Shown here: one piece after another, positions 7,318 through 57,803 of the stretch | How positions within the stretch are numbered: the stretch's first letter is position 1 | Layout: every line of letters starts with the position of its first letter | Assembly: GCA_015066665.1 (NCBI GenBank) | Contig: SVNX01000011.1 | Span: forward strand, 1 to 64,000 | Reading direction: 5' to 3' | From: Ruminococcus sp. | GTDB lineage: Bacteria; Bacillota; Clostridia; Oscillospirales; Ruminococcaceae | DNA: 64,000 nt | Translations under genes and position numbers: made by a program | Notes under the pieces: model-generated | The model's input: the letters and a program-made list of their open reading frames with translations, nothing else | Told to the model about the DNA's origin: nothing | Databases searched by the model: none

Positions 7318-7327
7318 AGCAGCCTCC

Positions 7328-7912: not shown

Positions 7913-7915
7913 GGA

Positions 7916-8596: not shown

Positions 8597-8597
8597 A

Positions 8598-9107: not shown

Positions 9108-10060
9108 CACTTTGCCTCCTTCTTCTGACGGACAGCACCAAAGGGCTTTGTCATGGTGAGCTGGTCGATGTAGGGGGTGAGAATGTTCATCAGCAGGATC
9201 GCAAGGGAAACGCCCTCGGGGAAGCTGCCGAATGTACGGATCAGGAAGGTCAGCAGACCGCAGCCAATGCCGAAGATCAGCTTGCCGCGGCTTGTCATGG
9301 GCGAGGTCACATAGTCCGTAGCCATGAAGAAGGCGCCGAGCAGCAGACCGCCGGAGAGGAGTTGGTAGGTCATTTCGTAGGTATCGCCGCCGCTGGCAAT
9401 CAGGCTGCATACCGCAACCGTACCAAGGTACGAGAGCGGTGTGACGGGGGAGATGAGACCCATAAAGATCAGGAAAATGCCGCCGAAGAAGAGTGCTGCC
9501 GCACAGGTCTCACCCAGACAGCCGCCGGTGCTGCCCCAGAAAAGATCCTGCATGCTGGCTGTACCGGAGACGAGGGGTGTGGCCGTTGTGACGGCGTCAT
9601 AGGCAAAGGCCTCGCCCGCCGCTGTTCTCGGGGCAATCCAGTGGGTCATATCCGAGGAGACGGAAACCATCAGCACAACGCGTGCGGTGATGGCGGGATT
9701 GGCAAAATTCTGACCAAGTCCGCCGAAGAGCTGCTTGACGATCACGATCGCCACAAAGCAGCCGACCGCTGCCTGCCACAGAGGCAGTGTTACGGGGAGA
9801 TTCATCGCAAGGAGAAGGCCGGTCAGGGCGGCACTACCGTCGGAGACAGTCTGTTCACGCTTCATGAGAATACGGCAGATGGCTTCGCACGCCATACTGA
9901 ACAGCACACAGAATACCATCAGCAGCAGGGCACGCCATCCGAAGTGGATGACACCGGCAATGGCCGCCGGCATGAGAGCTGCGATGACCAGCAGCATGAT
10001 CTTCTGCGTGGACATATCATCCCGGATATGGGGGGAGGTGGTAATTTTCAGTCGTTTCAC
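9107..10060 (-). CDS. rnfD: Rnf complex subunit D, FMN-carrying membrane protein
   Basis: RnfD (317 residues) is homologous to NqrB, with about nine to ten membrane segments. The sequence DAVTTATPL contains the threonine expected to carry covalent FMN. The conserved N-terminal MKRLKITTSPHIRDDMSTQKIM is typical. The stop overlaps the rnfG start by one base. Confidence 0.95.
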   Translation of the reverse strand: MKRLKITTSPHIRDDMSTQKIMLLVIAALMPAAIAGVIHFGWRALLLMVFCVLFSMACEAICRILMKREQTVSDGSAALTGLLLAMNLPVTLPLWQAAVGCFVAIVIVKQLFGGLGQNFANPAITARVVLMVSVSSDMTHWIAPRTAAGEAFAYDAVTTATPLVSGTASMQDLFWGSTGGCLGETCAAALFFGGIFLIFMGLISPVTPLSYLGTVAVCSLIASGGDTYEMTYQLLSGGLLLGAFFMATDYVTSPMTSRGKLIFGIGCGLLTFLIRTFGSFPEGVSLAILLMNILTPYIDQLTMTKPFGAVRQKKEAK

Positions 10061-10072
10061 GGGGCGTCCTCC

Positions 10073-11350
10073 TTACTTTTTGCGCATGAATTCCTTCGCC
10101 AGGCGGTTGGTTTCCACCAAGGGACGGTTGGCAGGGCAGACATAGCTGCAGCAGCCGCAAAGCATGCACAGGGACAGATGAAGATTTCTGAGTTCGTCCT
10201 GATCACCGCGGCGATAGGCATGCTCAAGCGCCGTGGGCATCAGATTCATGGGACAGGCCTGCATGCAGCGGCCGCAGCGGATGCAGGCGGTCTGCACGGC
10301 TCTGCGGTCTTCGGTGAAGGCCAGCAGGGCATTGGTGGGCTTTGTCACAGACAGATCGAACGAGGGCAGACAGCCGCCCATCATGGGGCCGCCGCCGATG
10401 AGACGGACGGTCTTTTCAAAATCGCATCCGGCATGGGTCAGGACTTCCCGCAGGGAAATGCCGATGGGCACATTCACATTGCAGGGGTTCTTGACCGCAT
10501 CGCCGTCGATGGTCAGATTGCGTCTGACAAGGGGCATGCCGGTGCGGAAATATTCCTCGAGGAAAGCCACCGTGGAGACATTCAGGACAATGACGCCCTG
10601 CTGGGAGGGCAGCTCGTCTTCCTTCACAATGCGGCCGGTGGTATGATAGATCAGCACCTTCTCTGCACCCTGGGGATAGACAGGCGGCAGAGGAATGATG
10701 GTGATGGCGTCATCCTGTGCAGCGCATTCGCTCAGCAGACGGATGGCATCGGGCTTGTTTTCCTCAACGCCGATGACGCATTCGGGAATGTCCAGAACCT
10801 TCATGATGCGGCGGATGCCGTCGATGATCTCGGGCTGATGCTCCTGCATGGTGCGGTCATCGGAGGTGATGTACGGCTCGCACTCGGCGGCATTGATGAT
10901 GAGGAAATCGATCTTGTCAGAGGTGTTCAGCTTGAAGTGGGTGGGGAAGCCCGCACCGCCCAGACCCACAGCACCGCTGCTACGGACGGCGTGGATGAAT
11001 TCCTCTTTATTCGTGTAAACGGGTGCCTTGAGTCCCGCAAAGGGTGTCTGCAGTCCGTCCGCTGTGATCTCCACTGCCTTGCAGGTGCTGCCGTCTGCCA
11101 TACGATAATCGGTGATGGCTGTGACGGTGCCCGAGACGGAAGCGTGGATATCAGCGGAGAAAAAGGCGTCGGATGTGCCGATGCGTTCGCCCACTGCCAC
11201 CTGCTGCCGGAGCTTGACGATGGGGGTGCAGGGCGTGCCCATGTGCATGGACATGGGGATCAGCACCTTCTGGGGCAGGGGCAGCGTCTGAATGGCACTG
11301 CCGGATGTCTGCTTGGCGTGGGGCAGGCGCAGACCACTGAGTTTTCGCAT
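10073..11350 (-). CDS. rnfC: Rnf complex subunit C, NADH-binding
   Basis: RnfC (425 residues) is the NAD(H)/FMN-binding soluble subunit. It has an N-terminal barrel-sandwich-like segment, a Rossmann-type nucleotide-binding core (GLGGAGFPTHFKL; INAAECEPYITSDDRTM) and two C-terminal ferredoxin motifs, CIRCGRCMQACP and CMLCGCCSYVCP. The start at 11350 is preceded by AGGAGG at 8 bases. It is the first gene of rnfCDGEAB, with a stem-loop in its leader. Confidence 0.95.
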   Translation of the reverse strand: MRKLSGLRLPHAKQTSGSAIQTLPLPQKVLIPMSMHMGTPCTPIVKLRQQVAVGERIGTSDAFFSADIHASVSGTVTAITDYRMADGSTCKAVEITADGLQTPFAGLKAPVYTNKEEFIHAVRSSGAVGLGGAGFPTHFKLNTSDKIDFLIINAAECEPYITSDDRTMQEHQPEIIDGIRRIMKVLDIPECVIGVEENKPDAIRLLSECAAQDDAITIIPLPPVYPQGAEKVLIYHTTGRIVKEDELPSQQGVIVLNVSTVAFLEEYFRTGMPLVRRNLTIDGDAVKNPCNVNVPIGISLREVLTHAGCDFEKTVRLIGGGPMMGGCLPSFDLSVTKPTNALLAFTEDRRAVQTACIRCGRCMQACPMNLMPTALEHAYRRGDQDELRNLHLSLCMLCGCCSYVCPANRPLVETNRLAKEFMRKK

Positions 11351-41542: not shown

Positions 41543-44500
41543 GTGAAAGATTTTCAGAATGTCATCGGCAAATATTTGTTGAATCGTGAGAAGAATAAAA
41601 AGTACTTAGCACTGCTTCTGGCATTGTGCCTTCTGGTTTCTTTTGCGGTTCCGTATAGTTTGATTCAGCCAGCGGACAGCCTGACCATTGACAGGAGTCA
41701 TCTGGCGACAGGGCTCTCGACGGCGACACCTGGGACACCCAGTTTGCTCGAGGGAACCAACATGCTGGATATCACGAGTGCAAATGAGTGGTATGCAAGT
41801 ATTACTACTGGAAATACATACATCTATGAGGCGAATCAGAGTGGTCGTCTTACTTCAAGTGATATTTATGACAACATTGTTGACCCCTTAAATCTTGAAG
41901 CGTACATCCAGTATGATTTTACGACAAGCGTGAAAGATGTATTAGCTAAACCTGGCACAGCGGGTCCTCATCTTGGCTGGTATATAGGCAATGACGCACT
42001 GAATACCAACGGATTTAAGGGTCTTCTTTATGACGAGGAGTACAGCGAAGATGTGGAAGCGGGTACATACGTCATTGAGAATGGATATGTTAAGATCACC
42101 CTTACAAATGAGTACTTAACATTCATTCATTCGGGTGACGGCTCTTTGAAGGGTTCTCTTGGCTTTGACGGTACACTTGGCCGCAGCAACGATGAAAATG
42201 GTGACCAGAGCTTTACACTGGCAGGCGAGACAATTGTTATCGCCTTCCCCGACAAGAACGCAACAATCGAAAGCAAGAACGCATATGTCAATACCAGTAA
42301 TGGTACCGTCGAGTGGACCGTGACCATTAACAACGCCAACAAGGTCAACATGAAGGATTACGTCCTGACGGATGACATGCTTAAAGACGCAACAAACGTG
42401 ACGTTCAATCCTCCGGGCACAGGTACTCACACACCAGGCGCAGACACCATCAGCTTTACTGAAACGACGAAGGATGCGCAATGGATTACAATCAAGTACA
42501 CGACGGACATTACAAAGGATCAGATGAACAAGGTGGAAGGTTCTGCCACCAATACCGCAAAGCTCACCAAGGGCGATCAGAATTTCGGTGAGAAGTCAGC
42601 AACTGCAGACTTCAACAGAGAACCGATCTTCGTCAGCAAGACCGGTACCCCTGACTATAACAGCGGTACCTACGCCGGCAAGATCAACTGGTCAGTGACA
42701 GTCACCAATAACTATGGTCTGCCGCTGACAGAATACATCATTGAAGATCCCAAGCTTACGGCCAATGCAACAGTATCCGATGGCAGCGAATTAACGCCTT
42801 TGGGTGATAATAAGTGGATGATCAATTCCACCGCTTCCTCTGTAACCATCAACTACACAACGGACGCTGTAGAAGGCACGAACGAGAATACAGCGCAGGC
42901 CTACTATCCCGATGGCACAAAGCCGGAACAGGGCGGTAAGTCTGAACAGAATGTAACCTATAAGACCGAGTCCGAGCTGTTCGGTCTGAATAAGACACAT
43001 ACCACCAATACGGATGGTACCATTACCTGGAATCTCATCGTCAATAATCAGAGTGGTCTGGATATGACAGGCTACACGCTGACGGATAAGATGCTGGCAG
43101 AAGCCATTGAGGGTTCGGTTACAATTCCCCTCGGTGCGTGGGTGAACGGTACACAGACACCGGTTGCAACATTTGCAGACGGTAAGTTGACATTCACCAG
43201 TGCGTCCAAGGGACAGCAGTGGATGACGATCAGCTACAAGACGCCTATTACAGATGAGATGCTGAAGGGTGATGCAGATTCGGCTGAAAGAACAAATGAT
43301 GTTCAGCTGAACAATCCTGACCCATCTGATCCGCCGATTTGGACAGATTCTGATACCGCTAAATTCGAAAAAGGCGACAACTTCACAGTCACCAAAACAG
43401 GTACGCCTGACTATGTAAATGGTACACATGGCAATGTGATTAACTGGACAGTGCGAATCACCAGCACCTATGGCACTTCTCTGGATGGATATCTTCTCGA
43501 AGATGCCAAGATTCCGGACACGGGCTGGACAGTTTCTCCTTCCGGTACGATCACAAAGAACGGCGATAAGTGGGTACTGAGCGGCACCAATGGTGCGAAG
43601 ACAGTGACTCTTACATATCCGGCCGCTGCAACAGAAGGCGGATCGGATAAGAATACCAATACTGCAACACTGTATTATCCGGATAACACCACAACAGGTG
43701 CGACCGATTCCGAGGGTGTGGAGTATAAGGGCTATGATGACCTGATCAGCCTTGGTAAGAGTGGTTGGTATGCACAGGATAATCACGAAATGAACTGGTC
43801 GATTACGATCTCGACACAGGGCGGCGTGAACATTCCGGCAAACTATTATATCACTGATGAAATGCTGAAGCAGGCAATTGATGGCAGCATTTCCTTCAAT
43901 CCCTCCAATGTGGATGTTACCGTATCTCAGACTGATGGAAAGGTGACTTTCAACACAGCCCATCAGGGTAATGTGACAATCACCTATCGCACATTGGTAA
44001 ATATTGCCGACGGCGATACGCAGATCACGCCTTCCAATACCGTTGGAGACGGTATGGGTCATTCGGACACCTGGAACGACCAGACCTATGAAGTACGCAA
44101 TACACTGAGCAAGAATTCTACTCAGGGCTACAGCTATTATGTCATCAATAATGGCCAGGTTGAGAAGATTGTGAACTGGAATGCGAGCATCGTATGGGAC
44201 GGCAGTTTCTCCACAAATGATAAGTTCTATGAGGATATCTTAACCGTAACAAGCGGTGACGGTACCCACACAATTACGGCTGCACAGCTTGCAGCCATCA
44301 CGATTACTGCACGAAAAGATCAGAACGGCGGTTCTACTACACTGGTTGCCGGAACGGACTTTACAGCGGTGCCAACGAGCACTGGCTTCAAGATCACATT
44401 TGCACCGACCGTTGATGAAAAGGGTTATAACTATGTAGACATCAACTACAGCACAACCCTTACCGCAAATGCACCGACAGGTACAGCATATCCTTATACC

Positions 44501-47500
44501 TATACCTTCGGCAATACAGCGAAGTTCAACGGAAAAGAAAGTACGCCCACCGATTATACAATCACCCGTGACAATCCTGTCAAGAATATTGACATGGAAG
44601 TTACAATCCGTAAGGATTGGCAGAATGACACGGATAACGAGAGACCTGCCAATGTTGTCACAAAGGTTCTGTACAAAACCAACGAGGATGGCACATGGCG
44701 GTACCTGAAGACAGCCGATGGCAAGCCGGTATATTATGGTGATGAAGCATATGCTTCGGCATCCGATTATACTGTAACGCTTGACAGTGAGGGTGCTTGG
44801 ACATCCAAGGTTACCGGTCTTCGCAAGGAGACAGCAACAGCGGATGAAAACGGCAATCCCACACCGACAGTCTACTATTATTACATGATCGAGGAGATCA
44901 CTCCCAGTGGCAAAACCATTGTAAACGGTCTGTATGAAATGGACGACGGTTATTATCAGGTAAGCTACACAAACAACCAGGGCATCAATTATAACGGTAC
45001 CATTTCTGTAACAAACAAGTTCTATAGAGATCGGTCCGTGACGCCGAAGAAATACTGGACAGGCAATACAGGCACAGGTACAGGTATTGATTCTGTTACG
45101 GTGCAGTTGGAATATTCCATTGGCGAATATGAAAACAATAAGCTCGTACGCTATCCCGTAAAGCTTCAGAACGGCACATATGTATTTGATGCAAACGGCA
45201 CAACAGCAGGTGCAGAGGTCGCCACACAGGATATCCTGGCTGGTGACGGCAGCTGGACCGGTACTGCATGGACAGGACTTCCTTCTGTAATCGTAGTTGA
45301 CAATCAGGTAAGGGAAGTTACATACCACATCGCTGAGACAGCAGTCACACAGACAGCAGCTGAAGGCGGCACTGCAACCGTGATTCCGGTGCTGAATGGC
45401 TCTACATTCGTCACATCCGACGGATATTACAGAGTTTCCAACAGTGCAGGCGACGGCTATCTGACAGTTACAAATGAGTTTGTGAAGACAGTGACATATT
45501 CTGTCGGCGTGCAGAAGGCATGGGCGGATGACGTGAATCATCCCGACAGCCGACCGGAAGTGATTCTGGTGCAGCTGCAGAGAAGCAAAGACTGGGGCGA
45601 ATGGACATCCATGGGTGATCCTGTGGAGCTTTCCACTGCAAACAACTGGGCGGCATCGTTCAACGACCTTCCGAACCAGCTGGCTGCTACCGATGGTACT
45701 GTAGAGAATTATCGCTACAGAGTCATTGAAGTGGGCTACAAGATGACGGCCGACGGCAGTGCAATCATGTTCCCCGCAGGCACAAACAGCTTTGCAACCG
45801 ACGAAAACGGCGTGTACAATATTTCGTACAGCAACTCGGTTAATCCCTACAGCGGAAACAGTGAGCTGTCACAGGCAGGTACAGTTACAGTCAAGAACAC
45901 ATTCGTTCCTGTTACGACCATCGATCTGACACCGCAGAAGATGTGGAAGGGCGACAAGAATGAGGATGGTCAGATTACTGACAGACCTCAGAGCATCACC
46001 TTTACGCTGCAGCAAAGTGAAGACTATGGTACAACATGGCAAAATGTGATTGAGAATAATCAGCCCAAGACGGTGACTCTCACAAGTGACACGAATAGTG
46101 TTGATGGCACAGTTTATGAGAATAACGCTGAGCTCAACACAACACTATGGAGTGCGGCAACCATTTATGGCCTGCCCTCAGAGAAAATCGAACGGAAAGC
46201 AGACGGAACTTATTCCAAGAAGATTCTGTATTATCGTTTTGTAGAGACATCGTATCAGGTATCTGAGAACAGTGGCTCAACAACGATTGATGCTGCAATC
46301 TATCAAACGAGTGAGACCAAGGATGATTTCTTCAAAACTGAGAATGGTAAGTATGAAATTACGTTTAATAATACTTACCAGACGGGCACACTGACAGTAA
46401 CTAATAAGTATACTGGAGCAGTAGGTATTGAGAAATTTGCCGTGGATAAAGATGGTAATGAACTCGATTCTACTATGGAAGTTGAGGATCTTGAAAATTA
46501 CAAATTCACAATTGATGGCGAAGATTACTATGTCTTCAACTGGATGATTAAATACGATCTGAAGGATTGGGGACAAGGTGACAAGCTGCCCACCATTCGT
46601 GACCAATTACCCGCAGGCTTTGAATTGGTATATGACAACAGTTTTGTGGGTGAGCTAAACGAATGGTCAGATTACTACTCTAATCAGTGGTGGGACACAA
46701 AGGGCGGCAGCTTTGCTAAAGTTATGACGGATATCTATAATAACAGCAAGTATATTCTTCATCCGTTCATTATTTATCCTGATAATGGATGGGGAGCAGG
46801 TGCGCAGCCAGCGAAAACTGCAGATGAGATTTTCGAAAAGTATATGCATGTGGTGAATTTTGATAATCCTAACTTCTGGTATTATTATGATACAAGTACA
46901 AATGAAGTGTATTTCAATAAGTATAAAGCATATGCACCTGCGATGGTTTACTACGCCATCAAGATCAAGTGTTCCGATCTTGAGGCTAAGATGGAAAAGG
47001 GATATCGTGTTATCTCTAATACGGCGTATACGTATGATGATGAAAGCGCAACTAAAGATGGCAGAATACCGCTTCTTGATACCACAGGCAGTATTACTCT
47101 TATCAACCCCATCGACACCAACCTGATCACCAAGTCCTACAACGAGACCAAGATCCCCGGCAATATTCAGTACTCTCTGAATATCAACCCGGAGGGCAAG
47201 AACCTCTCCAGTGGTGATACCATCGACATTCAGGACCTGTTTGAGACGGTAAGTTACTACGACCACGATTATACCGGCGGCGAAAAGCTGACAAACGGCA
47301 AGAAGCTCGTGGATGTTCTGATGAGCAACATCAAGATCTATGAAGTGGATGCCAACGGCAACAAGATCGAACTGAATTCCAGTGACTATACACTGATGTT
47401 CCAGTCCGGCGCTGATGTTTCTAATGGTGCAGCACTCATGAAGCTCACCATTCCGGATGAAACTCATATTGTGGTTGACTACACCTACAAGCTGATCGCA

Positions 47501-50500
47501 AACGAAACCACACCTTCCGTCATCCATGGCTGCAAGAGCTCTACCAGAGTCAACGGCAGATATGCAACTATGGCTCCCGGTATGGTGCCCCCCGCAGGCG
47601 ACAAGATTACATTCTCCAATACGGCAAAACTGAGTTCTGACAGTGCGGAATCCTCCGATTCCAAAACGAACACAGAATACGAAGTTTTCAAGTCCACCGG
47701 TACAATCTCTACCAACGCTCTGCCGAGCATCAAGAAGGTTAACACAGGCGACTATTCTATCGATAATCTGTCTGCTTCCTTCCTCCTGGCACGATATGAA
47801 AATGGTAAGTGGTACTATGTGGATCAGGCCGATGTGATTAACGAAGCCAAGGGCGAATATGACATCACCTGGGGCACAATCGGTGCAGAAGGTACAAGAA
47901 TCGCAGAAGGTGCGGAACGAATTGAAATCGTCGGCGGCTCGAATTTCAAGGTTGCACTCGATGAAAACATGCTTTACAAGCTGGTCGAGATCGAAGTTCC
48001 CGAGGACTATGAAGGTTCTAATCTGGGACTGGATGATACACAGTTTGAAGAGATGATCCGTGCATACCTGAATGACGGCGCAACGATCTATCAGGAGAAG
48101 GATTACACCATCTTCCTGAATCACTACATTTCCACCCATTACTTCACTTACAACAGCACAGTCGGCAGCTATCCTGCTGAAGTGAAGGCAAGTGATGTGG
48201 TACAGGTCAAGTCCGGCAGCAATGTGGAAATTCCCAACAATAAGCTGATCGACATTGGCGTAACCAAGACATGGGTGAACCCCGTTGCAGATGTTACAGA
48301 TTCTGAGATTACTGTGGAACTGTACTGGTCTTTCACCAAGAACACCACCGGTATTCCGGAGGATGCAGAACCGGCAAGAGCAGAAGATCTCGGTATTCTC
48401 GATGAAAACTTCTCTGCAACAAAGACAATCAAGGTTGGCGATGCTGCGAATGATAAGGTTTGGACAAACCTCCCGAACGGCTCAGCCAAGAAACCGATCT
48501 ACTATTACATCAAGGAAACAGCTTACACCATCGGCGGAAAAACTTATTTCTACGATAGTGACAGCAATTCCTTTAAGGCTGAAAGCGGTGAGGGCGGTGC
48601 CTACATGCCGACCTATACCGGTAATGCCGCAAACGATGATACAATCATCGATGTCAGAAACTCTTACCAGCTGATGCTGAAGAAGGAGTGGAAGAACGCT
48701 GCAAATGACCCGATGAAGAATATCCCCGTGGACGGCGTAGTCGTATCCATTTATGGTATTTATGAAGTCGATGGCGTCAACGTGCAGACAGAGAATCCGC
48801 TTTTCGAGGGCGTTGTGCTTTCAAGCGCAAACAACTGGACAGCAGACCTGACTTCCCAGCTTTCAAAGGCCGGCGACCTCAGCCTCTACAAGGCATTCGT
48901 TGCCGTGGAGAATGAGAATCCCGCAATGGAAGGCTATGTAGTCAGCTGCGTATTCAATCTGAATGCTCAGACTGGTGAGATCATTGTAACCAACAAGAAC
49001 ACACTTCCGACAGAAGCGTCTGTCTCTGTAAATAAGCTGTGGAGCGACGGTAATACACTGCACGCAAATGAATCCATTGAAGTCGTGCTGTACCAGAGCC
49101 AGACCCAGCTTTCCGACCTGACCGACCTTGCATCGAAGATCACCCTGATGGGTCTGTCGCCGATGCAGGATGAGGATGGTACGGTGTACAAGGCAACGCT
49201 GAACGCCGAGAACGAGTGGACACACAGCTGGACAGGACTGCCGCTGGAAGATGAGGAACAGAACAAGTACTACTACTACGTTCTGGAAAACATGTCCGGT
49301 GTTGCCAATGCCAGCAAGTACAATGCAACTTATGTTGTAACCGATAAGACCACAACCAAGACAGAGTATACTGTAAAGAACACCCGTGAGGCAATCGTAG
49401 CGGAAAAGCAGTGGCTCGCCGAGGATGGTTCTGCACTCACAGTCGATGAGCTGAAGGCCATGGGCATTGACAGCATTAAGCTGGAGGTAGTGAAGAAGGT
49501 TGCGACAGTTCCGGAGGATGGGCTTGATATTGTAGCTTTAGGTGACTCAATCACAAGAGGCGAATATCAGGGGTATGTTGCAGCAGCAAATACATATCCG
49601 CCACAATTGGAAGCACTTCTGGAAGGTAATACTTATGGTTACAGTAATGTGACAGTTATCAAACAAGGTCAAGATACAACGCAAATTCCTAATTTTGAAT
49701 CCCGTCTTGGAGATATAAATAGTGATACCGAAATTGTATGCATTATCGGAGGAACAAATGATATTCACCAAGATAACAGCACAAGACCCATAACGGAAAT
49801 TAGGGACAGAATGTCGAGCCTGATTGGAAAGATCAAGGATAAGAATTCTGATATTATCATTCTTGTTGGTAGTATTCCGCATTTTGACTTTGTTCATAAC
49901 AATACTAATACGGACGGTGCGCAATGGTGGGGTGGTTATTATAATAACAACTCCTCTATGACAACGCTCCAAGCGTTTGAAGACACTTGTAATGCACGAA
50001 TTGATGCCTATAATGTGCTTCTGGATAGTCTGGCAGCAAGTCTTGACAATGTTTATTATGTGGATATTTGTGCAGCTGTAAATAAGGACACAATGCTCTA
50101 CGTTAAGAGTAATGGACAAGGCGATGGATGTCATCCGAATGAAAAAGGATATAAAGCAATTGCATCCACTTTCGCAACAGCTATTAACTCGCTCTACAGT
50201 CAATCCGAATCTGTCACCGAATTCACCCTGACAGCGGACAACAACTGGATGGCAGCGATCGACATCGAAGATGCAGATCCGAACGCAGAGTACTACATTG
50301 AGGAATCCGACATCCCTGCTGGCTGGACAGTCACCTACAGCGGCGCACCGCAGAAGATTGGCAGCAGCACACCGATCGTTGTAACCAACACAAAGCATAC
50401 CCCCAAGACGGATCTGACCGTCGAAAAGATCTGGCAGAACGATGAGGAGGATATGAGCCTCAGAGGCAACATGACCTTCACATTGCTCAGAAGTATTGAC

Positions 50501-53221
50501 AATGTAAACTGGGAGGAAGTGGATGTCACAACACCGACTCGTGTTGGTGCAGACGACGCTTCTACTTGGACATTCAAATACGAAGATCTCCCCGCCGAAG
50601 ACAGCTTCGGCAACACCTACTACTATATGGTAGAGGAAGACCCGCTGACCGGTTATGTCGTATCCTATGGCGAACAGCCTGTAATGGCAGTACCGGATGG
50701 CAACTCTGACACACTTCAGATGACCAACACCTTCCGACCCATCAGCCTCAATGTTGAAAAGTTCTGGAGCATCCCCGAGGGTCTGACCGGTATTGAAACA
50801 CCGGACAGCATTCAGGTTCAGCTGCAGCAGTCAACGGACGGCGGTAAGAACTGGGAGGATGTGACGGACAGAACACTTGTACTGAGTAAGGCAGAAGGCT
50901 GGACAGGACTGTTTGCTGACATTCCGGGCAGAAGTGGTACGATCTATCGGGTAAGAGAAGTTACTGATCTGAGCAGTTATGGCTGGTTTGAAGACGAAAG
51001 TAAACGAACCACCGCAAGCGAAGACGGTGCCACTCTCACACTCACCAATACCTTGAAGACCGGTTCTCTGGATGTAGAGAAGGATTGGATCGACGGCGAC
51101 GATGATACCGATCTCCCCGAGCAAATCATGGTTGCGGTGTACCGCAAGAAGATCATTCGCTCGAAACAGCAGCCGCTCAACAGCATCTCTTCTGCAAGTG
51201 CACAGCGTGCACAGGCAATCAGAGGCATTGTTCCCGCAGCTGGCAGTGAAGTGAAGTCGAAGGCGGCAGGAACGGGTACAATTCAAATCACACAATATAC
51301 ACAGTATGCTTATGATCTGCCCAGCGAATTTAAACAGTATGCACTTATATCGGTAGTTGTGCGATATGGCGTTGGACCAGCACAAAGTCTTAACTTTGAC
51401 CTGAAGGATTGGAGCTATGGTTCTACCGTTGTGTCACAAGGAACCCCAACTATTAGTGGGAAGACTGCCACATGGACATACAATAATGTTACTGGAGTAG
51501 GAGCAATATACATTCCAGCGACTGGATCCTCAACATTGCAATCAGATATCAAAGAGATTACATTAAATTATTCAGATGGATCAACATATACATTAACAAA
51601 TAGTACTTTTGTAAGTACTGAACCCGAACTTAATGTAACAGTATCTAAGAGTTCTATTGTGATTGGTGAATCTGTTATTATTCAGGTAACTGGACAAGAT
51701 GGAGAGGCAGCACTTTCAGTTCCTTCAGACTCAAATGTAGTTGATATTGATGGAACCAGTGTTATTGGTAAGAATCCTGGTACAGTAACTGTAACTGTAT
51801 CGGATACTGGTAGTAATGCTACTGAAACCTTCGATATCACCGTCCTCCCCATGCAGTTCAAATCCAACATCGCAAAGATTGCTGGTGATAAGTTCACATT
51901 AACCAATGGTGATTTCAACAATCTCCCCGCAACATGTGCGACCATCGAGTACACATGCAGCGAGCCAAATGCCGTGAAGATCAATGGCAGTGAGATCACC
52001 GTCATCACATCTTCCGACACGCCTTACACGCTGACAGCAACCGCAAAGGACGCTGAAGGCAACGTAATCACCACAGCAACAGCACAGCTCACGGTGGGTG
52101 CATTCACCATCAGCCCGACATTGCTTGAACTGACTGAGAACCCCACCGAAACAGCAAAGCTGACAGCCAACAAGCCCGTCAGCGAATGGACCGTACCGGC
52201 AGGCTGTGAAGAGTTTGTGACTCTGAACTACACACCGGGCGAAACCACCTGCGAAGTGATCTACAAGAAGTACACACCGGACACATTCCCCATTACCGCA
52301 ACGGATAATGGCGTGAGTGCAGAGGCAACCATCAAGATGTTGACCGGTGAGCTGACATTCACTTCAACTTACAAAACCGTTCATGTGGGCGGCACAATCA
52401 AGCTGGAAGCAACGGACGGTGCGGAGATTACCGGCTATAATGCCGATCTGGTGACCTTCAATGAGGATACCCTCGAAGTAACCGGTAAGGCAGTCGGCAC
52501 AACGCTCTTCACAGCAACCCGCAACGGCGCTGTAGAAACGCTTGAGATTACCGTTATCGATGAACTGGCAATCACTGGAGACACCCATACAATCAACACA
52601 GGTGATACGCTTGCACTGAGTGCAAACGGCATCGGCATACTGCAGTGGACATCCGATAGAGAGTCCATCGCAAGAGTGAATGGAAACGGTGTCGTGACCG
52701 GTGTACTGAACGGCGATGTTACCATTACCGCAACGGACGTTGACGGTACAACAGCAACCTACACCATCAAGGTGAATCTGACAGCAGCGAACGCCGGTCT
52801 CCCCGAAGACAAGGAGTTCGTGAAGAACCTGACGCTGAATGCAGCAGGCGGCTGGAAGAACGGCTTGGACGATCTGCCTTTGACAGATGGCATGGGCAAT
52901 GTATATGAATACTACATTGTTGAGCTTGATGATCACGGCAACCCGATCGAAGGCGGCAGCATGACAAGCATTACCGGCAGCAACACAAGCGTTGGCTACA
53001 TTCCCGTAAGCTATCTGAACAATGGTACAGAGCTGACGGAGAATGAAAGTGCAGTCATCACCGTATCGAACAAGAAGCTTGAGCATGAGACTCAGGGAAG
53101 TATGCCCTCCGCCGGCGGAAGCGGCACAACTGGATATTATGGAATCGGCGTGATCATGATCCTCGGTTCCGCAGCCGGATACCTATTGCTCCGACGTCGT
53201 CAGAAAGACGAGTCAAAATAA
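41543..53221 (+). CDS. Giant multi-domain pilus-tip adhesin with SGNH hydrolase domain
   Basis: 3892 residues from a GTG start behind AAAAGGAGGGG. Residues 21-36 form the signal hydrophobic core. Residues about 240-1010 are repeated DUF11/isopeptide-like domains. About eleven Cna_B-like domains start near 1015, 1163, 1320, 1460, 2237, 2377, 2492, 2617, 2956, 3067 and 3174. Residues 1629-1852 and 1853-2236 are further adhesin-like blocks. The Cna_B at 2617 is interrupted by an SGNH hydrolase (2660-2888: Ser2669 in GDSIT, Asn2739 in GGTND, Asp2861/His2864 in DGCH). The Cna_B at 3174 is interrupted at about 3204-3750 by a binding-like segment and Ig-like (Big_2) domains. The C-terminus has MPSAGG (3854-3859), a membrane helix and RRRQK, a sortase signal deviating from LPXTG. 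As first and largest pilin-type gene it is probably the tip adhesin. Confidence 0.88.
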   Translation: MKDFQNVIGKYLLNREKNKKYLALLLALCLLVSFAVPYSLIQPADSLTIDRSHLATGLSTATPGTPSLLEGTNMLDITSANEWYASITTGNTYIYEANQSGRLTSSDIYDNIVDPLNLEAYIQYDFTTSVKDVLAKPGTAGPHLGWYIGNDALNTNGFKGLLYDEEYSEDVEAGTYVIENGYVKITLTNEYLTFIHSGDGSLKGSLGFDGTLGRSNDENGDQSFTLAGETIVIAFPDKNATIESKNAYVNTSNGTVEWTVTINNANKVNMKDYVLTDDMLKDATNVTFNPPGTGTHTPGADTISFTETTKDAQWITIKYTTDITKDQMNKVEGSATNTAKLTKGDQNFGEKSATADFNREPIFVSKTGTPDYNSGTYAGKINWSVTVTNNYGLPLTEYIIEDPKLTANATVSDGSELTPLGDNKWMINSTASSVTINYTTDAVEGTNENTAQAYYPDGTKPEQGGKSEQNVTYKTESELFGLNKTHTTNTDGTITWNLIVNNQSGLDMTGYTLTDKMLAEAIEGSVTIPLGAWVNGTQTPVATFADGKLTFTSASKGQQWMTISYKTPITDEMLKGDADSAERTNDVQLNNPDPSDPPIWTDSDTAKFEKGDNFTVTKTGTPDYVNGTHGNVINWTVRITSTYGTSLDGYLLEDAKIPDTGWTVSPSGTITKNGDKWVLSGTNGAKTVTLTYPAAATEGGSDKNTNTATLYYPDNTTTGATDSEGVEYKGYDDLISLGKSGWYAQDNHEMNWSITISTQGGVNIPANYYITDEMLKQAIDGSISFNPSNVDVTVSQTDGKVTFNTAHQGNVTITYRTLVNIADGDTQITPSNTVGDGMGHSDTWNDQTYEVRNTLSKNSTQGYSYYVINNGQVEKIVNWNASIVWDGSFSTNDKFYEDILTVTSGDGTHTITAAQLAAITITARKDQNGGSTTLVAGTDFTAVPTSTGFKITFAPTVDEKGYNYVDINYSTTLTANAPTGTAYPYTYTFGNTAKFNGKESTPTDYTITRDNPVKNIDMEVTIRKDWQNDTDNERPANVVTKVLYKTNEDGTWRYLKTADGKPVYYGDEAYASASDYTVTLDSEGAWTSKVTGLRKETATADENGNPTPTVYYYYMIEEITPSGKTIVNGLYEMDDGYYQVSYTNNQGINYNGTISVTNKFYRDRSVTPKKYWTGNTGTGTGIDSVTVQLEYSIGEYENNKLVRYPVKLQNGTYVFDANGTTAGAEVATQDILAGDGSWTGTAWTGLPSVIVVDNQVREVTYHIAETAVTQTAAEGGTATVIPVLNGSTFVTSDGYYRVSNSAGDGYLTVTNEFVKTVTYSVGVQKAWADDVNHPDSRPEVILVQLQRSKDWGEWTSMGDPVELSTANNWAASFNDLPNQLAATDGTVENYRYRVIEVGYKMTADGSAIMFPAGTNSFATDENGVYNISYSNSVNPYSGNSELSQAGTVTVKNTFVPVTTIDLTPQKMWKGDKNEDGQITDRPQSITFTLQQSEDYGTTWQNVIENNQPKTVTLTSDTNSVDGTVYENNAELNTTLWSAATIYGLPSEKIERKADGTYSKKILYYRFVETSYQVSENSGSTTIDAAIYQTSETKDDFFKTENGKYEITFNNTYQTGTLTVTNKYTGAVGIEKFAVDKDGNELDSTMEVEDLENYKFTIDGEDYYVFNWMIKYDLKDWGQGDKLPTIRDQLPAGFELVYDNSFVGELNEWSDYYSNQWWDTKGGSFAKVMTDIYNNSKYILHPFIIYPDNGWGAGAQPAKTADEIFEKYMHVVNFDNPNFWYYYDTSTNEVYFNKYKAYAPAMVYYAIKIKCSDLEAKMEKGYRVISNTAYTYDDESATKDGRIPLLDTTGSITLINPIDTNLITKSYNETKIPGNIQYSLNINPEGKNLSSGDTIDIQDLFETVSYYDHDYTGGEKLTNGKKLVDVLMSNIKIYEVDANGNKIELNSSDYTLMFQSGADVSNGAALMKLTIPDETHIVVDYTYKLIANETTPSVIHGCKSSTRVNGRYATMAPGMVPPAGDKITFSNTAKLSSDSAESSDSKTNTEYEVFKSTGTISTNALPSIKKVNTGDYSIDNLSASFLLARYENGKWYYVDQADVINEAKGEYDITWGTIGAEGTRIAEGAERIEIVGGSNFKVALDENMLYKLVEIEVPEDYEGSNLGLDDTQFEEMIRAYLNDGATIYQEKDYTIFLNHYISTHYFTYNSTVGSYPAEVKASDVVQVKSGSNVEIPNNKLIDIGVTKTWVNPVADVTDSEITVELYWSFTKNTTGIPEDAEPARAEDLGILDENFSATKTIKVGDAANDKVWTNLPNGSAKKPIYYYIKETAYTIGGKTYFYDSDSNSFKAESGEGGAYMPTYTGNAANDDTIIDVRNSYQLMLKKEWKNAANDPMKNIPVDGVVVSIYGIYEVDGVNVQTENPLFEGVVLSSANNWTADLTSQLSKAGDLSLYKAFVAVENENPAMEGYVVSCVFNLNAQTGEIIVTNKNTLPTEASVSVNKLWSDGNTLHANESIEVVLYQSQTQLSDLTDLASKITLMGLSPMQDEDGTVYKATLNAENEWTHSWTGLPLEDEEQNKYYYYVLENMSGVANASKYNATYVVTDKTTTKTEYTVKNTREAIVAEKQWLAEDGSALTVDELKAMGIDSIKLEVVKKVATVPEDGLDIVALGDSITRGEYQGYVAAANTYPPQLEALLEGNTYGYSNVTVIKQGQDTTQIPNFESRLGDINSDTEIVCIIGGTNDIHQDNSTRPITEIRDRMSSLIGKIKDKNSDIIILVGSIPHFDFVHNNTNTDGAQWWGGYYNNNSSMTTLQAFEDTCNARIDAYNVLLDSLAASLDNVYYVDICAAVNKDTMLYVKSNGQGDGCHPNEKGYKAIASTFATAINSLYSQSESVTEFTLTADNNWMAAIDIEDADPNAEYYIEESDIPAGWTVTYSGAPQKIGSSTPIVVTNTKHTPKTDLTVEKIWQNDEEDMSLRGNMTFTLLRSIDNVNWEEVDVTTPTRVGADDASTWTFKYEDLPAEDSFGNTYYYMVEEDPLTGYVVSYGEQPVMAVPDGNSDTLQMTNTFRPISLNVEKFWSIPEGLTGIETPDSIQVQLQQSTDGGKNWEDVTDRTLVLSKAEGWTGLFADIPGRSGTIYRVREVTDLSSYGWFEDESKRTTASEDGATLTLTNTLKTGSLDVEKDWIDGDDDTDLPEQIMVAVYRKKIIRSKQQPLNSISSASAQRAQAIRGIVPAAGSEVKSKAAGTGTIQITQYTQYAYDLPSEFKQYALISVVVRYGVGPAQSLNFDLKDWSYGSTVVSQGTPTISGKTATWTYNNVTGVGAIYIPATGSSTLQSDIKEITLNYSDGSTYTLTNSTFVSTEPELNVTVSKSSIVIGESVIIQVTGQDGEAALSVPSDSNVVDIDGTSVIGKNPGTVTVTVSDTGSNATETFDITVLPMQFKSNIAKIAGDKFTLTNGDFNNLPATCATIEYTCSEPNAVKINGSEITVITSSDTPYTLTATAKDAEGNVITTATAQLTVGAFTISPTLLELTENPTETAKLTANKPVSEWTVPAGCEEFVTLNYTPGETTCEVIYKKYTPDTFPITATDNGVSAEATIKMLTGELTFTSTYKTVHVGGTIKLEATDGAEITGYNADLVTFNEDTLEVTGKAVGTTLFTATRNGAVETLEITVIDELAITGDTHTINTGDTLALSANGIGILQWTSDRESIARVNGNGVVTGVLNGDVTITATDVDGTTATYTIKVNLTAANAGLPEDKEFVKNLTLNAAGGWKNGLDDLPLTDGMGNVYEYYIVELDDHGNPIEGGSMTSITGSNTSVGYIPVSYLNNGTELTENESAVITVSNKKLEHETQGSMPSAGGSGTTGYYGIGVIMILGSAAGYLLLRRRQKDESK

Positions 53222-53271: not shown

Positions 53272-53300
53272 ACTAAAAAAACATTTTGGAGGAATTTATT

Positions 53301-55031
53301 ATGACAAAAATGAGAAGATTTGCAGCGATCGCAGCAGCAGCAGCTATGACAGCTTGTATGGCAATGCCGATGATGACAGGTTTTGCAGCATCCGTAACAA
53401 CTGGTAATGGAAACACTATCACAGTAACACCTTCTGATGGCGCAACTCACAAATATGAGGCATATCAGATTTTTGCTGGTACGTACAGCGGCGGCGTACT
53501 CACCGACATTACATGGGGTGATGGCGTTGATGGTCCAGCTCTGTTGGCAGCACTGAAGGGTGATACAACTCTCGGTACATATTTCGCAACTTGCGAAGAT
53601 GCAGAGGATGTTGCAAATGCTCTGGCAGCAACTTCCGGAGATCCGGCAACTCCTGTTTTTGAAGATGATAAGGCTAATGCACAGGCCTTTGCAAAACTTG
53701 TTGCGGCAAACCTTACAGCCGTGACTTCTGGTTCTGAAGCAACGAATGGTGTTACAAAGCTGCCTGATGGTTATTACCTGATTCAGGATTCTGAATCACC
53801 TACAAATCCTGATGGTTCCAACCCCAATTCCGGTGCAATGACTCGTTACGTTGTTAGAGTAACAGCCGGTGCGACAGTTGAAGTTAACGCTAAGCATTCT
53901 GCCCCCACAGTTATGAAGAAGGTAGAAGAAGAATCTCTCGTAGGCGGTACAATGGAAACAGCTGATTTTGCTGGTAATTCTGCTTTTGAATTGGGCGATG
54001 GCTATAATGATATTGCTGACTATGATATCGGTGATGCGGTATCCTTCAAGCTGTATGGTACACTGCCGTCTACATTTGATGATTATGCAGCGTACTATTA
54101 CAAGTTTACTGATACACTGGATTCTCAGTTTAATGCCCCCGCTAAAGAGAATGTTAAGGTTTACATTGACGGTAAACCGGCACAGAATGCAACAGTTACA
54201 GTTACGGGACAGAATATCACTGTTGAGTTTGCAAACATCAAGAATGGCAATACTGTGAACGCTAATAGTATTGTAACCGTTGAGTATGATGCAGTTCTCA
54301 ACAATACTGCTGAAATCGGTCTGCCGGGTCAGAAGAATGCTGTTAAGCTTAATTATTCCAACAATCCTAATTGGGATGGTTCTGGCACATCTACTACAGG
54401 CGAGACTCCTGAGGACGGCGTAATCGTATTTACTTATGGTATCGATATCAACAAGGTAGACGAAACTGGTACTACAAAGCTTCCAAATGCAAAGTTTGCT
54501 GTAAAGAATTCTGCTGGCCAGTATGTAACTGCTACTGCCGGAAAGTTTAGCGGTTTTGTTACTGAAGCTCCCGATGTTGCAACCGGTAGCACAACAACTG
54601 GTCTGTTTGTATCTTCTGCTGATAGCGTAATTACAATCGAAGGTCTGGATGCTGGCACTTATACCATCGTTGAGCTTGAAGCTCCTGAGGGATATAACAA
54701 GTTGACAGAAGGCATTAAGGTTGAAGTTGCTCCCACAATGCCAACTGACAGACAGGCTTGGACATACGCTGCCGATGGTTCTACAGCATCTGCTGCACTG
54801 ACTGGTCTTTCTGTGATGTATGATGCCGAGAGTGCACAAACACTGGGCAATGATGGTGGTGCAACTGCTAATTCTGGTAAGGGTACAGTTAAGATTGAGA
54901 ACAAGAGGGGTACATCCCTCCCCGGCACCGGCGGCATCGGTACCACAATCTTCTACGTAGTGGGCGGTACTCTGGTAGCTGGCGCAGGCGTAACCCTGAT
55001 CGCTAAGAAGCGCATGAAGAAGGAAGACTAA
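53301..55031 (+). CDS. Backbone (major) pilin, isopeptide-forming fimbrial protein
   Basis: The 576-residue protein has a signal peptide of about 28 residues (ending MTGFAA) and an N-terminal domain with HKYEAYQIFAGTYSGG, typical of SpaA/FimA-type backbone pilins. A probable pilin-motif lysine lies in HSAPTVMKKVEEE. A central isopeptide domain follows, then a Cna_B-type domain (INKVDETGTTKLPNAKFAV ... YTIVELEAPEGY with its E-box Glu). The sorting signal is LPGTGG plus a membrane helix and KKRMKKED. It should be polymerised by the downstream class C sortase. GGAGG lies 9 bases upstream of the start. Confidence 0.93.
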   Translation: MTKMRRFAAIAAAAAMTACMAMPMMTGFAASVTTGNGNTITVTPSDGATHKYEAYQIFAGTYSGGVLTDITWGDGVDGPALLAALKGDTTLGTYFATCEDAEDVANALAATSGDPATPVFEDDKANAQAFAKLVAANLTAVTSGSEATNGVTKLPDGYYLIQDSESPTNPDGSNPNSGAMTRYVVRVTAGATVEVNAKHSAPTVMKKVEEESLVGGTMETADFAGNSAFELGDGYNDIADYDIGDAVSFKLYGTLPSTFDDYAAYYYKFTDTLDSQFNAPAKENVKVYIDGKPAQNATVTVTGQNITVEFANIKNGNTVNANSIVTVEYDAVLNNTAEIGLPGQKNAVKLNYSNNPNWDGSGTSTTGETPEDGVIVFTYGIDINKVDETGTTKLPNAKFAVKNSAGQYVTATAGKFSGFVTEAPDVATGSTTTGLFVSSADSVITIEGLDAGTYTIVELEAPEGYNKLTEGIKVEVAPTMPTDRQAWTYAADGSTASAALTGLSVMYDAESAQTLGNDGGATANSGKGTVKIENKRGTSLPGTGGIGTTIFYVVGGTLVAGAGVTLIAKKRMKKED

Positions 55032-55142: not shown

Positions 55143-56015
55143 ATGAGGAAAAAATTAAATCTGCTTTCTACTGTCATACTCGTATTTTTACTCCTGGTGG
55201 GTCTCTCCGTGATGTTGTATCCGACGGTCAGCGACTGGTGGAATTCCAAAACCCAGAGCCGTGCCATCGCAAGCTATAGCGAAGCCATCAACGATATCGA
55301 TGATAATCGCTATGAGGAAATGTTCGAGGCTGCACAGGCCTATAACGAGAAAATCGTCAGGGTGTCAGCGCCTTTTGCCAATTACGCCGAGGTTCCCGGT
55401 TATGCGGACGTACTCGATGTCTCCGGTACCGGTATCATGGGCTACATCTCCATCCCCCAGATCAAGGTGGAGCTACCCATCTACCACGGCACAAGCGAGG
55501 CCGTCCTCAATATCGCTGTCGGCCATCTTGAAGGCTCGACCATCCCCGTTGGCGGCGAGGGCACACATGCCGTTCTCTCCGCACACCGCGGACTTCCTTC
55601 CGCAAGACTCTTCACCGACCTCGACCAGCTCATCGTCGGCGATACCTTTACCATCACCATCCTCGATGAGGTTCTGACCTACGAGATCGAGGAGATCAAC
55701 ATCGTCCTCCCCCATGAGATGGACTATCTGGCCATCACCCCCGGAAAGGACTATGTCACACTGATGACCTGCACCCCCTACGGCGTCAATACTCATCGTC
55801 TGCTGCTTCGTTCGAAGCGCATTGACACTGTCGTGGAACGTACCGTCAGAGTCTCTGCCGATGCCGTTCAGGTCGACCCGCTTCTTGTTGTACCGGTGCT
55901 GTCCGCACCGCTCGTGCTGCTGCTGCTCATCTTCTGGGCGTTCAGCGGCCGGAAAAAGAAGAAGCTCCCTTACCGCAATCCCCTCTATACACTCCACTTA
56001 GGAAAGGATGATTGA
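55143..56015 (+). CDS. srtC: Class C (pilin-polymerising) sortase
   Basis: A 290-residue protein with an N-terminal membrane segment, a sortase core with His148 (LSAHRGLPSAR), Cys210 (TLMTCTPYGVNTHRLLLR) and the following Arg, and a C-terminal membrane helix (VVPVLSAPLVLLLLIFWAF) that is typical of class C enzymes. The lid region does not show a clear DPF/DPW motif. It likely links backbone pilins through LPGTG and the pilin lysine. Confidence 0.92.
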   Translation: MRKKLNLLSTVILVFLLLVGLSVMLYPTVSDWWNSKTQSRAIASYSEAINDIDDNRYEEMFEAAQAYNEKIVRVSAPFANYAEVPGYADVLDVSGTGIMGYISIPQIKVELPIYHGTSEAVLNIAVGHLEGSTIPVGGEGTHAVLSAHRGLPSARLFTDLDQLIVGDTFTITILDEVLTYEIEEINIVLPHEMDYLAITPGKDYVTLMTCTPYGVNTHRLLLRSKRIDTVVERTVRVSADAVQVDPLLVVPVLSAPLVLLLLIFWAFSGRKKKKLPYRNPLYTLHLGKDD

Positions 56016-56016
56016 T

Positions 56017-57138
56017 ATGCGCACAAAACTTGGCAGACATGCCTCCTTGCTGCTCTGCAGCTTTGGACTGCTTCTGTGGATGATTGCCGGCGTGATGCTG
56101 CCCGTCTTTGCGGACACACAGCTTGGCTCGCTGACAATGCACTGTAAGACGCCGGATGATGTGATTCTCGACGGCATGGAATGGAGTATTTACTATGTCG
56201 GCGACCGCAATCAGGATGGCGAACTGGAACTTCAGGGGCAATACGCATCCTTCCCCGTTTCCCTCGAGGATGAATCCGCTTCCGCATTGACGGATGCGGC
56301 CAGAACACTCGAAACTTACGCAATGCAGTTTGGCTTGGATCCGCTGGCCACCGCCGTGTCGGATGCCAATGGCTATCTGAAATTCTCCCAGCTTGAACCC
56401 GGCCTGTATCTCGTCAGCGGTAAGGGCAAGAAGGTGGTGGATCGTTACTATTTCCCCTCTGCTTTCCTTGTAGAAATCTCCGCTTCTGGTGATGCACAGC
56501 TTGATATGTCCGCCAATCCCAAATTCCTGTCCATGAATTCCAATGCGGGCAGCTGGAACTATACCGTCAAGAAGGTATGGGAGAATGATGAGGATTATCT
56601 CGAGAATCGCAGTGCCTATATCACTGTTGAGATCTATCGTGATGATGTTCTGTTTGAGACTGTTCGCCTGGATGAATCCAACGACTGGACTTATGAGTGG
56701 AGTTCCACATCCTTCCACCAGTGGCGTGTGTGGGAGAAGGAGGTCCCCGAGGATTACTATGTTGTTTATCGCTCCAATGAAACACAGTTTGTGATTGTCA
56801 ATGCACTGACCATCTCCAGTGTGTCCACTGAAACCACTCCCTACACGGACGATGTCAGCACGGAGACCCGTCCTACGGATGACACCGCAAACAGCGATTC
56901 ACAGACCACTCCGGATACGGAAGATGTCAATACCGAAACGATTCCTACTACAATTCAGAACGATACAAATTCAATCACGACCGCAGCAACATCCGACACA
57001 ACCACCACCACAAAGACCACCAACTCTGAAACAGAGAAACTGCCTCAGACAGGACAGCTCTGGTGGCCGGTTCCGCTTCTGGGACTTGCCGGACTCATTT
57101 CCATCGCAGTTGGAATGCGGCTGCGTACAAAGGAGTAA
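56017..57138 (+). CDS. Minor (basal) pilin with LPQTG signal
   Basis: The 373-residue protein has a signal peptide (about residues 1-32) and a SpaA-like N-terminal domain with LKFSQLEPGLYLVSG. A Cna_B domain (NYTVKKVWENDEDY ... WEKEVPEDYYVVY) and a Thr/Ser-rich stalk of about 75 residues follow, then LPQTG plus membrane helix and RLRTKE. The Thr-rich stalk and canonical LPXTG suggest the basal anchor subunit attached to peptidoglycan. The start at 56017 is preferred to 56008 because GGAAAGG is then 9 bases away; it follows the sortase stop by one base. Confidence 0.88.
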   Translation: MRTKLGRHASLLLCSFGLLLWMIAGVMLPVFADTQLGSLTMHCKTPDDVILDGMEWSIYYVGDRNQDGELELQGQYASFPVSLEDESASALTDAARTLETYAMQFGLDPLATAVSDANGYLKFSQLEPGLYLVSGKGKKVVDRYYFPSAFLVEISASGDAQLDMSANPKFLSMNSNAGSWNYTVKKVWENDEDYLENRSAYITVEIYRDDVLFETVRLDESNDWTYEWSSTSFHQWRVWEKEVPEDYYVVYRSNETQFVIVNALTISSVSTETTPYTDDVSTETRPTDDTANSDSQTTPDTEDVNTETIPTTIQNDTNSITTAATSDTTTTTKTTNSETEKLPQTGQLWWPVPLLGLAGLISIAVGMRLRTKE

Positions 57139-57140
57139 TT

Positions 57141-57803
57141 ATGGGCAAAAAACATGCCTGGTACTGGATTGGAACAGGAACAATGCTGCTTCTTGCGGCA
57201 TTGTTCCTTGTTGTCTATAATGTGTACAGCGACAGACAAAGCGGAAAAGCCTCCGGAGAGATCCTGACCGCACTGCGACAGGTGATTACGGAGCATACGC
57301 CCGAGACACCGGAGGAAGAGACAATGCCCCTGATTCCGGAACCGTCCGAGGATCTTTATGAGGAATACGAGCAGGAGGAGGAAACGCTTCCGCCCGAGGA
57401 TCCGACTGTGGAGCTTGATGGCCGCTATTATGTCGGCGTGCTGACGATTCCTTCGCTGAATGTTGAACTGCCCGTGCTGCGTGAGTGGAGTTACCCCAAC
57501 CTCCGCATTGCACCGTGTCGGTACATCGGTGCGGCGGCTGCCGGTGATCTTGTCATTGCGGCACATAATTACAGCTCGCATTTCGGCCGGATTCAGTCGC
57601 TGAATACCGGCGATGAAATCCTCTTCACCGATGCGGAGGGCAAGGTGTACCGCTATGCCGTCTCCCACACGGAGATGATCGGCGGATATGATGTGCCGAC
57701 CATGAAGGCGGGCGCTGAAGGCGAATGGGATCTGACCCTCTTTACCTGTACACTCAGCGGCCGGAGCCGTGTCAGTGTCAGAGCAGTCGAGATCAAAGAA
57801 TGA
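57141..57803 (+). CDS. Second sortase
   Basis: The 220-residue protein has one N-terminal membrane segment, an acidic Glu/Pro-rich spacer (about residues 45-85) and a sortase core with His142 (IAAHNYSSH) and Cys203 (TLFTCTLSGRSRVSVRA, with the catalytic Arg). It lacks the C-terminal membrane helix of class C enzymes. It may attach the LPQTG basal pilin to the cell wall. The precise class is not certain. Confidence 0.88.
   Translation: MGKKHAWYWIGTGTMLLLAALFLVVYNVYSDRQSGKASGEILTALRQVITEHTPETPEEETMPLIPEPSEDLYEEYEQEEETLPPEDPTVELDGRYYVGVLTIPSLNVELPVLREWSYPNLRIAPCRYIGAAAAGDLVIAAHNYSSHFGRIQSLNTGDEILFTDAEGKVYRYAVSHTEMIGGYDVPTMKAGAEGEWDLTLFTCTLSGRSRVSVRAVEIKE

Follow-up and report, generated by a model that had tools for sequence, protein, structure and literature searches.

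The question raised by this locus is whether a complete enzyme has been built into a single structural domain of a pilus adhesin and, if so, what it does there. In the window, by which we mean the whole stretch of 64,000 nucleotides that was analysed, positions 41543-53221 of the plus strand form a single open reading frame of 3892 amino acids in which Pfam recognizes Cna_B in five stretches, along with Big_2 and a single full-length Lipase_GDSL_2 domain. An earlier reading of the DNA letters without database searches (the sequence-only reading) had claimed that an SGNH hydrolase with all its catalytic blocks splits one CnaB domain of this protein, and that the A/T-richness of the inserted segment suggests separate acquisition. 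It had also placed the adhesin at a pilus tip and suggested that an esterase or deacetylase there could act on glycans of the host or of plant fibre. The features of the locus are as follows.

41543..53221, plus strand: giant sortase-anchored adhesin with CnaB repeats (open frame; Cna_B E 6.5e-28 over 5 stretches, Pfam; TIGR01167)
49379..49522, plus strand: N-terminal half of the split CnaB, strands A and B, with the putative isopeptide Lys2622 (alignment, AlphaFold2, profile comparison)
49523..50209, plus strand: nested SGNH/GDSL hydrolase, residues ~2661-2889, with Ser2669, Asn2739, Asp2861, His2864 and the Block II Thr2712 (Pfam, AlphaFold2, alignment)
50210..50401, plus strand: C-terminal half of the split CnaB, strand C onward, with Glu2921 and Asn2949 (alignment, AlphaFold2, profile comparison)
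51047..53083, plus strand: last CnaB, residues 3169-3847, its B-C hairpin split by a second cargo of ~550 residues (Cna_B and Big_2 matches; invariant Lys12, Trp14 and Asn675)
51158..52807, plus strand: second cargo, approximate bounds (~residues 3206-3755) set by eye from the sequence, a beta-rich segment followed by an Ig-like (Big_2) repeat
53286..55031, plus strand: backbone pilin (GramPos_pilinBB, SpaA, LPXTG anchor)
55143..56015, plus strand: sortase
56008..57138, plus strand: minor pilin with one CnaB and LPQTG
57063..57803, plus strand: second sortase

The C-terminus of the adhesin scored 16.6 bits against TIGR01167, for which the cut-off is 15.9, and its sorting signal is MPSAGG. Downstream of the adhesin come, in order, the backbone pilin, a sortase, the CnaB minor pilin and the second sortase. 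The sorting signal together with the adjoining backbone pilin and sortase identifies the adhesin, as judged from sequence, as a subunit of a sortase-assembled pilus, and a place for it at the pilus tip is plausible. Among 22 related loci, several of which are cut at contig ends, 15 had a homologue of the pilin and 14 had the first sortase. No pilin follows the adhesin in two genomes, G032 and G036, where unrelated genes come next, and none was found downstream in the locus L049. Because of these three cases the nested enzyme is not strictly tied to the pilus operon. In the relatives compared, the sorting signal takes forms other than that of the adhesin in the window, LPSTGG and MPSTGG being examples.

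To describe the nesting we used an alignment of 12 composites, the window and 11 from genome contigs, which was also the input for AlphaFold2. In all 12 rows Lys2622, which lies before the hydrolase, and Glu2921 and Asn2949, which lie after it, are invariant; they fit the Lys of the first strand, the catalytic Glu and the Asn of the last strand of a CnaB. The AlphaFold2 model (pLDDT 87.4, pTM 0.72) has CnaB strands on both sides of the hydrolase, at 5-13 and 32-42 ahead of it and at 274-285, 291-295, 305-309, 316-321 and 333-339 behind it in model numbering. Six residues lie between strand B and the first hydrolase strand, and the last hydrolase helix (255-273) runs straight into strand C (274-285). 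When the two halves were joined, their profile aligned with the ordinary CnaB repeats of these proteins in register across the cut (98.9% probability, E 1.9e-17), and this alignment locates the insertion site in the hairpin between CnaB strands B and C. The C-terminal half also matches the C-terminal ends of 7vcr, 7vcn and 7w6b (E 3e-4 to 1e-3), chains that carry the name 'von Willebrand factor type A domain protein'. Since Pfam Cna_B did not match either half, the composite or the uninterrupted domain of the G032 orthologue, the assignment to CnaB relies on the isopeptide residues, on the model, on the comparison of profiles and on the orthologue that has no interruption. It is hardly credible that the flanking segments are a linker or two unconnected pieces, with the hydrolase an ordinary domain in a row and not nested. 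The missing Pfam matches would agree with this; against it stand the invariant Lys before and Glu and Asn after the hydrolase, the single profile alignment that spans the cut, the model, and the short turn found at the insertion point in G032. Thus, the nesting proposed in the sequence-only reading is upheld, and a complete SGNH/GDSL domain sits between the two halves of one CnaB.

These results suggest how the composite could be built. The chain would exit the CnaB at the tip of the B-C hairpin, fold as an SGNH esterase and re-enter at strand C. Lys2622 would form an isopeptide bond with Asn2949, assisted by Glu2921, and the enzyme would then be held at two points in a covalently closed stalk domain. 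In the canonical order of blocks both ends of the hydrolase would lie at the pole opposite the active site, and the pocket is predicted to face away from the stalk because in the SGNH topology the Ser ends the first strand and the loop with Asp and His is on the same side (PMC9487903). In the pilus subunits RrgA (CnaA-like) and Spy0125 (CnaB-like), likewise, a whole domain lies in a loop of an isopeptide domain and the halves still fold together; inserts in CnaA and CnaB folds are described as being usually isopeptide or adhesion domains (PMC12617251). The insert in the adhesin differs from the RrgA and Spy0125 type in being an SGNH hydrolase with an intact triad. Among the literature matches listed there was no description of an enzyme nested in a CnaB.

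Homologous adhesins exist both with and without the insertion. In the orthologue from G032 (L033) a turn of ~15 residues takes the place of the insert in the same CnaB, and a more distant orthologue from the genome G012 (L103) has a linker of ~40 residues there; in both the CnaB is uninterrupted. In G036 the B-C hairpin of the orthologous CnaB holds an SGNH domain that is circularly permuted (L027, 9214-10230, minus strand). The G036 adhesin is encoded by a frame at 7243-11097 on the minus strand of L027 (1285 aa), the N-terminal side of which is cut at the contig end. In its insert a piece with Block V (345-369) comes first and Blocks I to III (376-555) come next, which gives the order H-S-G-N; each block occurs once, the catalytic residues are all kept, and the CnaB halves flank the insert on both sides. 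When its pieces were put back in the usual order, the insert fell in a group of five (100/98). Since the other four members, L035, L036, L037 and L049, are canonical, the permutation is most simply taken as derived. The observed order would result if the domain was duplicated in tandem within the hairpin and the two outer parts were then lost; no useful direct repeats marking such an origin were found in L027.

Circularly permuted SGNH proteins are known, namely, AlgX, AlgJ and PatB1 (PMC9487903), and they share the block order H-S-G-N with the G036 insert. Their altered motifs (GTSYS or KDS, and Tyr for Asn in AlgX and AlgJ; PMC9487903) are absent from the G036 insert, which keeps the canonical GDSIT, GGTNDI and DGCHPN. 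Because of these canonical motifs and its place inside a canonical nested group, the G036 permutation looks recent and separate from that of AlgX, AlgJ and PatB1. An esterase with canonical motifs that is permuted within a CnaB socket was not described among the literature matches listed. It is somewhat unlikely that the permutation is an assembly artefact or a decaying remnant and not a working natural permutant. This explanation would fit the fact that the permuted form comes from a single MAG of 57% completeness and is one case among 19 class I inserts, the lineage defined below, but then the frame of 1285 aa would not be expected to run uninterrupted with both joins in frame, with every block present once and with the catalytic residues kept. 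Moreover, the L027 contig is without any N, and its gene order and neighbouring genes agree with those of G032, the two being sisters at one locus that share three neighbour genes at 88-99% identity, for one of which the figure covers 270 of 466 aa.

We turn next to the catalytic blocks of the nested domain. Profile search confirmed the SGNH assignment: Lipase_GDSL_2 covers residues 2665-2872, positions 1-178 of the 178 of the model (E 7.5e-17), and Lipase_GDSL also matches (E 2.5e-12). In the AlphaFold2 model strands and helices alternate over residues 49-273, which, as far as secondary structure goes, fits an alpha/beta/alpha fold. Block I is GDSIT with the nucleophile Ser2669, Block III is GGTNDI with Asn2739, and Block V, DxxH, supplies Asp2861 and His2864. 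The numbering of these four residues in the sequence-only reading was correct in the alignment. Its statement that all expected blocks are present held for Blocks I, III and V but is not quite right, since Block II is GQDT and not GxSG, with Thr2712 at the position of the usual Gly. This column was compared in 22 inserted domains (19 of class I and three of class II, a different SGNH lineage) and in 34 domains picked by frame length from shorter frames of 180-1099 aa. Gly is present in 13 of the 22 inserts and in 29 of the 34 shorter-frame domains. All 22 inserts retain Ser, Asn and His, 21 of them retain Asp, and 18 of the 19 class I inserts retain all four. In L102 (genome G013), Ala falls in the column of the Block V Asp of the nested SGNH at aa 2169-2388, where a short insertion may have displaced the Asp.

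It could be argued that the nested SGNH is now a binding module that recognizes acetylated glycans with little or no turnover. The replacement of the Block II Gly in the window and in nine of the 22 inserts against five of the 34 shorter-frame domains, the Ala at the Asp column of L102, and the usual isopeptide or adhesion role of CnaA and CnaB inserts (PMC12617251) would agree with this. We consider it quite unlikely because binding alone needs none of the retention of Ser, Asn, His and Asp seen in the inserts. In addition, Block II acts through its backbone amide and has Ala in one CE3 protein, and known proteins with Ala or Ser at the position of the Block II Gly have been reported (PMC9487903).

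Since the catalytic residues favor an esterase over a binding module, the next question is its substrate. The best solved match to the profile of the composite alignment was 2vpt (E 1.5e-16), which is CtCes3, a xylan esterase of family CE3, to which CesA and XynB of R. flavefaciens also belong (PMC9487903). The nested domain shares with these enzymes the SGNH fold and the Block I motif, GDSIT fitting the CE3 consensus GXSXT (PMC9487903), and 2vpt is its nearest solved relative by profile. Unlike the CE3 enzymes it lies inside a domain of a pilus adhesin, has Thr at the Block II Gly, and as a single sequence misses 2vpt: the best match to the window domain alone was 9kr0, an 'SGNH/GDSL hydrolase family protein' (E 2e-5), and 2vpt was absent. 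Against the NCBIfam model for acetylxylan esterase the window domain scored 30.3 bits, the cut-off being 700. The genome to which the window belongs has 89 dockerin matches, and nine of its GDSL_2 domains, counting the nested one, exceed the cut-off. The most likely explanation is that the host is a cellulosomal gut bacterium whose sortase pilus carries, in this adhesin, an esterase of acetyl-xylan type, and acetyl-xylan would then be the substrate. On the pilin and sortase operon, the 2vpt profile match and the 89 dockerins we infer a fibre-directed acetyl esterase, and taken as a whole, a pilus adhesin with a locked CnaB socket and such an esterase nested in it is, in our judgement, probably the right account. 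The adhesin would be the large, first-encoded subunit of the pilus of a cellulosome-making, Ruminococcus-like host; the pilus would hold the cell to the fibre while the esterase removes acetyl groups from plant-cell-wall polysaccharide.

It is decidedly unlikely that the substrate is host mucin, or the acetyl groups of the cell wall of the bacterium itself or of a neighbour, and not plant fibre. The SGNH superfamily does include sialic-acid esterases and acetyltransferases of peptidoglycan and O-antigen (PMC9487903), related records come from gut samples, for example from roe deer caecum, and the window domain alone misses the CE3 structure. Nevertheless, the closest solved relative of the profile is a CE3 xylan esterase, Block I fits CE3 (PMC9487903), and the genome is rich in dockerins. 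If the esterase reading is true, a gut fibre degrader bears a deacetylase on the very structure with which it grips its food, and a single domain, probably with a covalent bond to close it, joins catalysis to adhesion.

The hydrolase is not the only cargo of this adhesin. All nine adhesins that were compared at this point, among them that of the window, have the B-C hairpin of their final CnaB, ahead of the sorting signal, split as well, and Lys12, Trp14 and Asn675 of this domain are invariant in all nine rows. Of five second cargoes scanned, those of the window, L040 and L044 have Big_2 over the cut-off. The second cargo of L036 has a Cbm74 match in Pfam (E 4.2e-14); no CBM match was found by Pfam in the second cargo of the window. 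The Ig-like second cargo could be part of the fibre-holding pilus. In L031 (aa 880-1131) and L034 (aa 691-914) an SGNH domain of class II lies between CnaB strands A and B, and in L031 the Pfam Cna_B match resumes at model position 19 after the hydrolase.

We tentatively propose, on what is a little short of an even footing, that the CnaB hairpins of these Ruminococcus-type adhesins act as sockets in which binding modules and whole enzymes can be exchanged, the socket being empty in G032 and the esterase being permuted in place in G036 with its pocket turned toward the stalk. The pocket should turn to the stalk in G036 because the graft points shift from the opposite pole to the loop before the Asp and His. 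If this is true, nature has re-oriented an enzyme while its scaffold stayed fixed. It also suggests that the CnaB hairpin takes whole enzymes in nature, which is the principle behind loop-grafting in isopeptide tools. The G032 and G036 pair makes two questions testable, namely, how circular permutants originate and whether permutation becomes easy when the two ends are kept together by a host domain. Domains inserted in CnaA and CnaB folds and circularly permuted SGNH proteins were already known; what is new here is the permutation of G036 in the same hairpin, the second cargo in the last CnaB, and the second SGNH lineage in another loop.

The inserted segment is indeed richer in A/T than its flanks, with a GC of 0.39 against 0.50 and 0.52 and a GC3 of 0.30 against 0.62 and 0.59. 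Separate acquisition, which the sequence-only reading had drawn from this, does not follow in the sense of a recent event. The nested insert also occurs in relatives, at 28-44% identity, the class I inserts form one group, and in 18 of 20 loci the insert has a lower GC3 than either flank (L028 and L043 are the exceptions when the values are taken to two decimals). Over the 66 pairs formed by 12 sequences the divergence of the flanks is correlated with that of the inserts (Mantel r 0.42, p 0.006), and the adhesin has further dips in GC at 46250-47000 and 51500-51950. The general GC3 dip, the correlated divergence and these other dips led us to reject recent horizontal acquisition as an explanation of the A/T content. 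In favor of separate acquisition is the depth of the dip in the window, where the insert, set against all stretches of its length in the gene, ranks in the lowest 2% for both GC and GC3; the place of the insert within its gene by GC3 ranges from 0.02 to 0.82 in the other 19 loci, few of which are as deep. Because of the single class I group and the correlated divergence of flank and insert, the insert reads as old and retained, with occasional loss or exchange, rather than as a recent arrival. The A/T-rich stretch of the adhesin at 46250-47000 has a GC of 0.37-0.43.

How widely the composite occurs was examined in several samples. A contig scan with the single adhesin protein found no relative, and the scan with the first alignment found 27 loci, 11 of which are giant frames of 2687-3593 aa (two of them run off contigs) with Block I before Block V in all 11. 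In the genus sample (38 genomes, many incomplete) the full composite was present in five (G000, G008, G011, G013 and G014). G036 has the permuted form, G020 and G022 have class II inserts, and G025 has a frame that stops within the insert. In the family sample a locus was counted when 354 or more of the 356 positions matched within a frame longer than 2600 aa, and at most five candidates were scored per genome; of 396 genomes, 8 had the composite, at 10 loci and under five genus codes. With at most five candidates scored per genome, no full composite was found outside the family in 394 genomes of the order and 398 of the phylum, both of which samples include some family members.

In an unrooted tree a branch (99/97) sets the 19 class I inserts apart from all other rows, the three class II inserts group with the 34 shorter-frame domains (99/97), and all 22 inserts are likewise one side of a branch (89/90). 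The tree excludes seven rows that are pieces of giant proteins in short loci and four distant rows, L050, L051, L053 and L061. The nested SGNH domains may have a single origin, but class II in L031 and L034 occupies another CnaB loop, which speaks for separate insertions.

A few observations on individual loci may be added. In other families of the order there are SGNH matches in long frames, at G486:C30:9294-9938 (1906 aa) and G534:C55:1563-2042 (1436 aa). The frame of the G025 orthologue (L104, 3030-5681) stops shortly after Block I of the nested SGNH and is either a broken gene or an assembly error. Between G036 and G032 the adhesin (L027 and L033) is far more divergent than its neighbours except at the anchor, with 20% to 100% identity per 25-residue stretch aligned, and this comparison points to a fast-changing surface protein. 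Finally, the record of L043 (JAMPEF010000001.1), which has an adhesin of Gram-positive type with a pilin and a sortase, is titled Alistipes senegalensis (Bacteroidota), and this title may be wrong.
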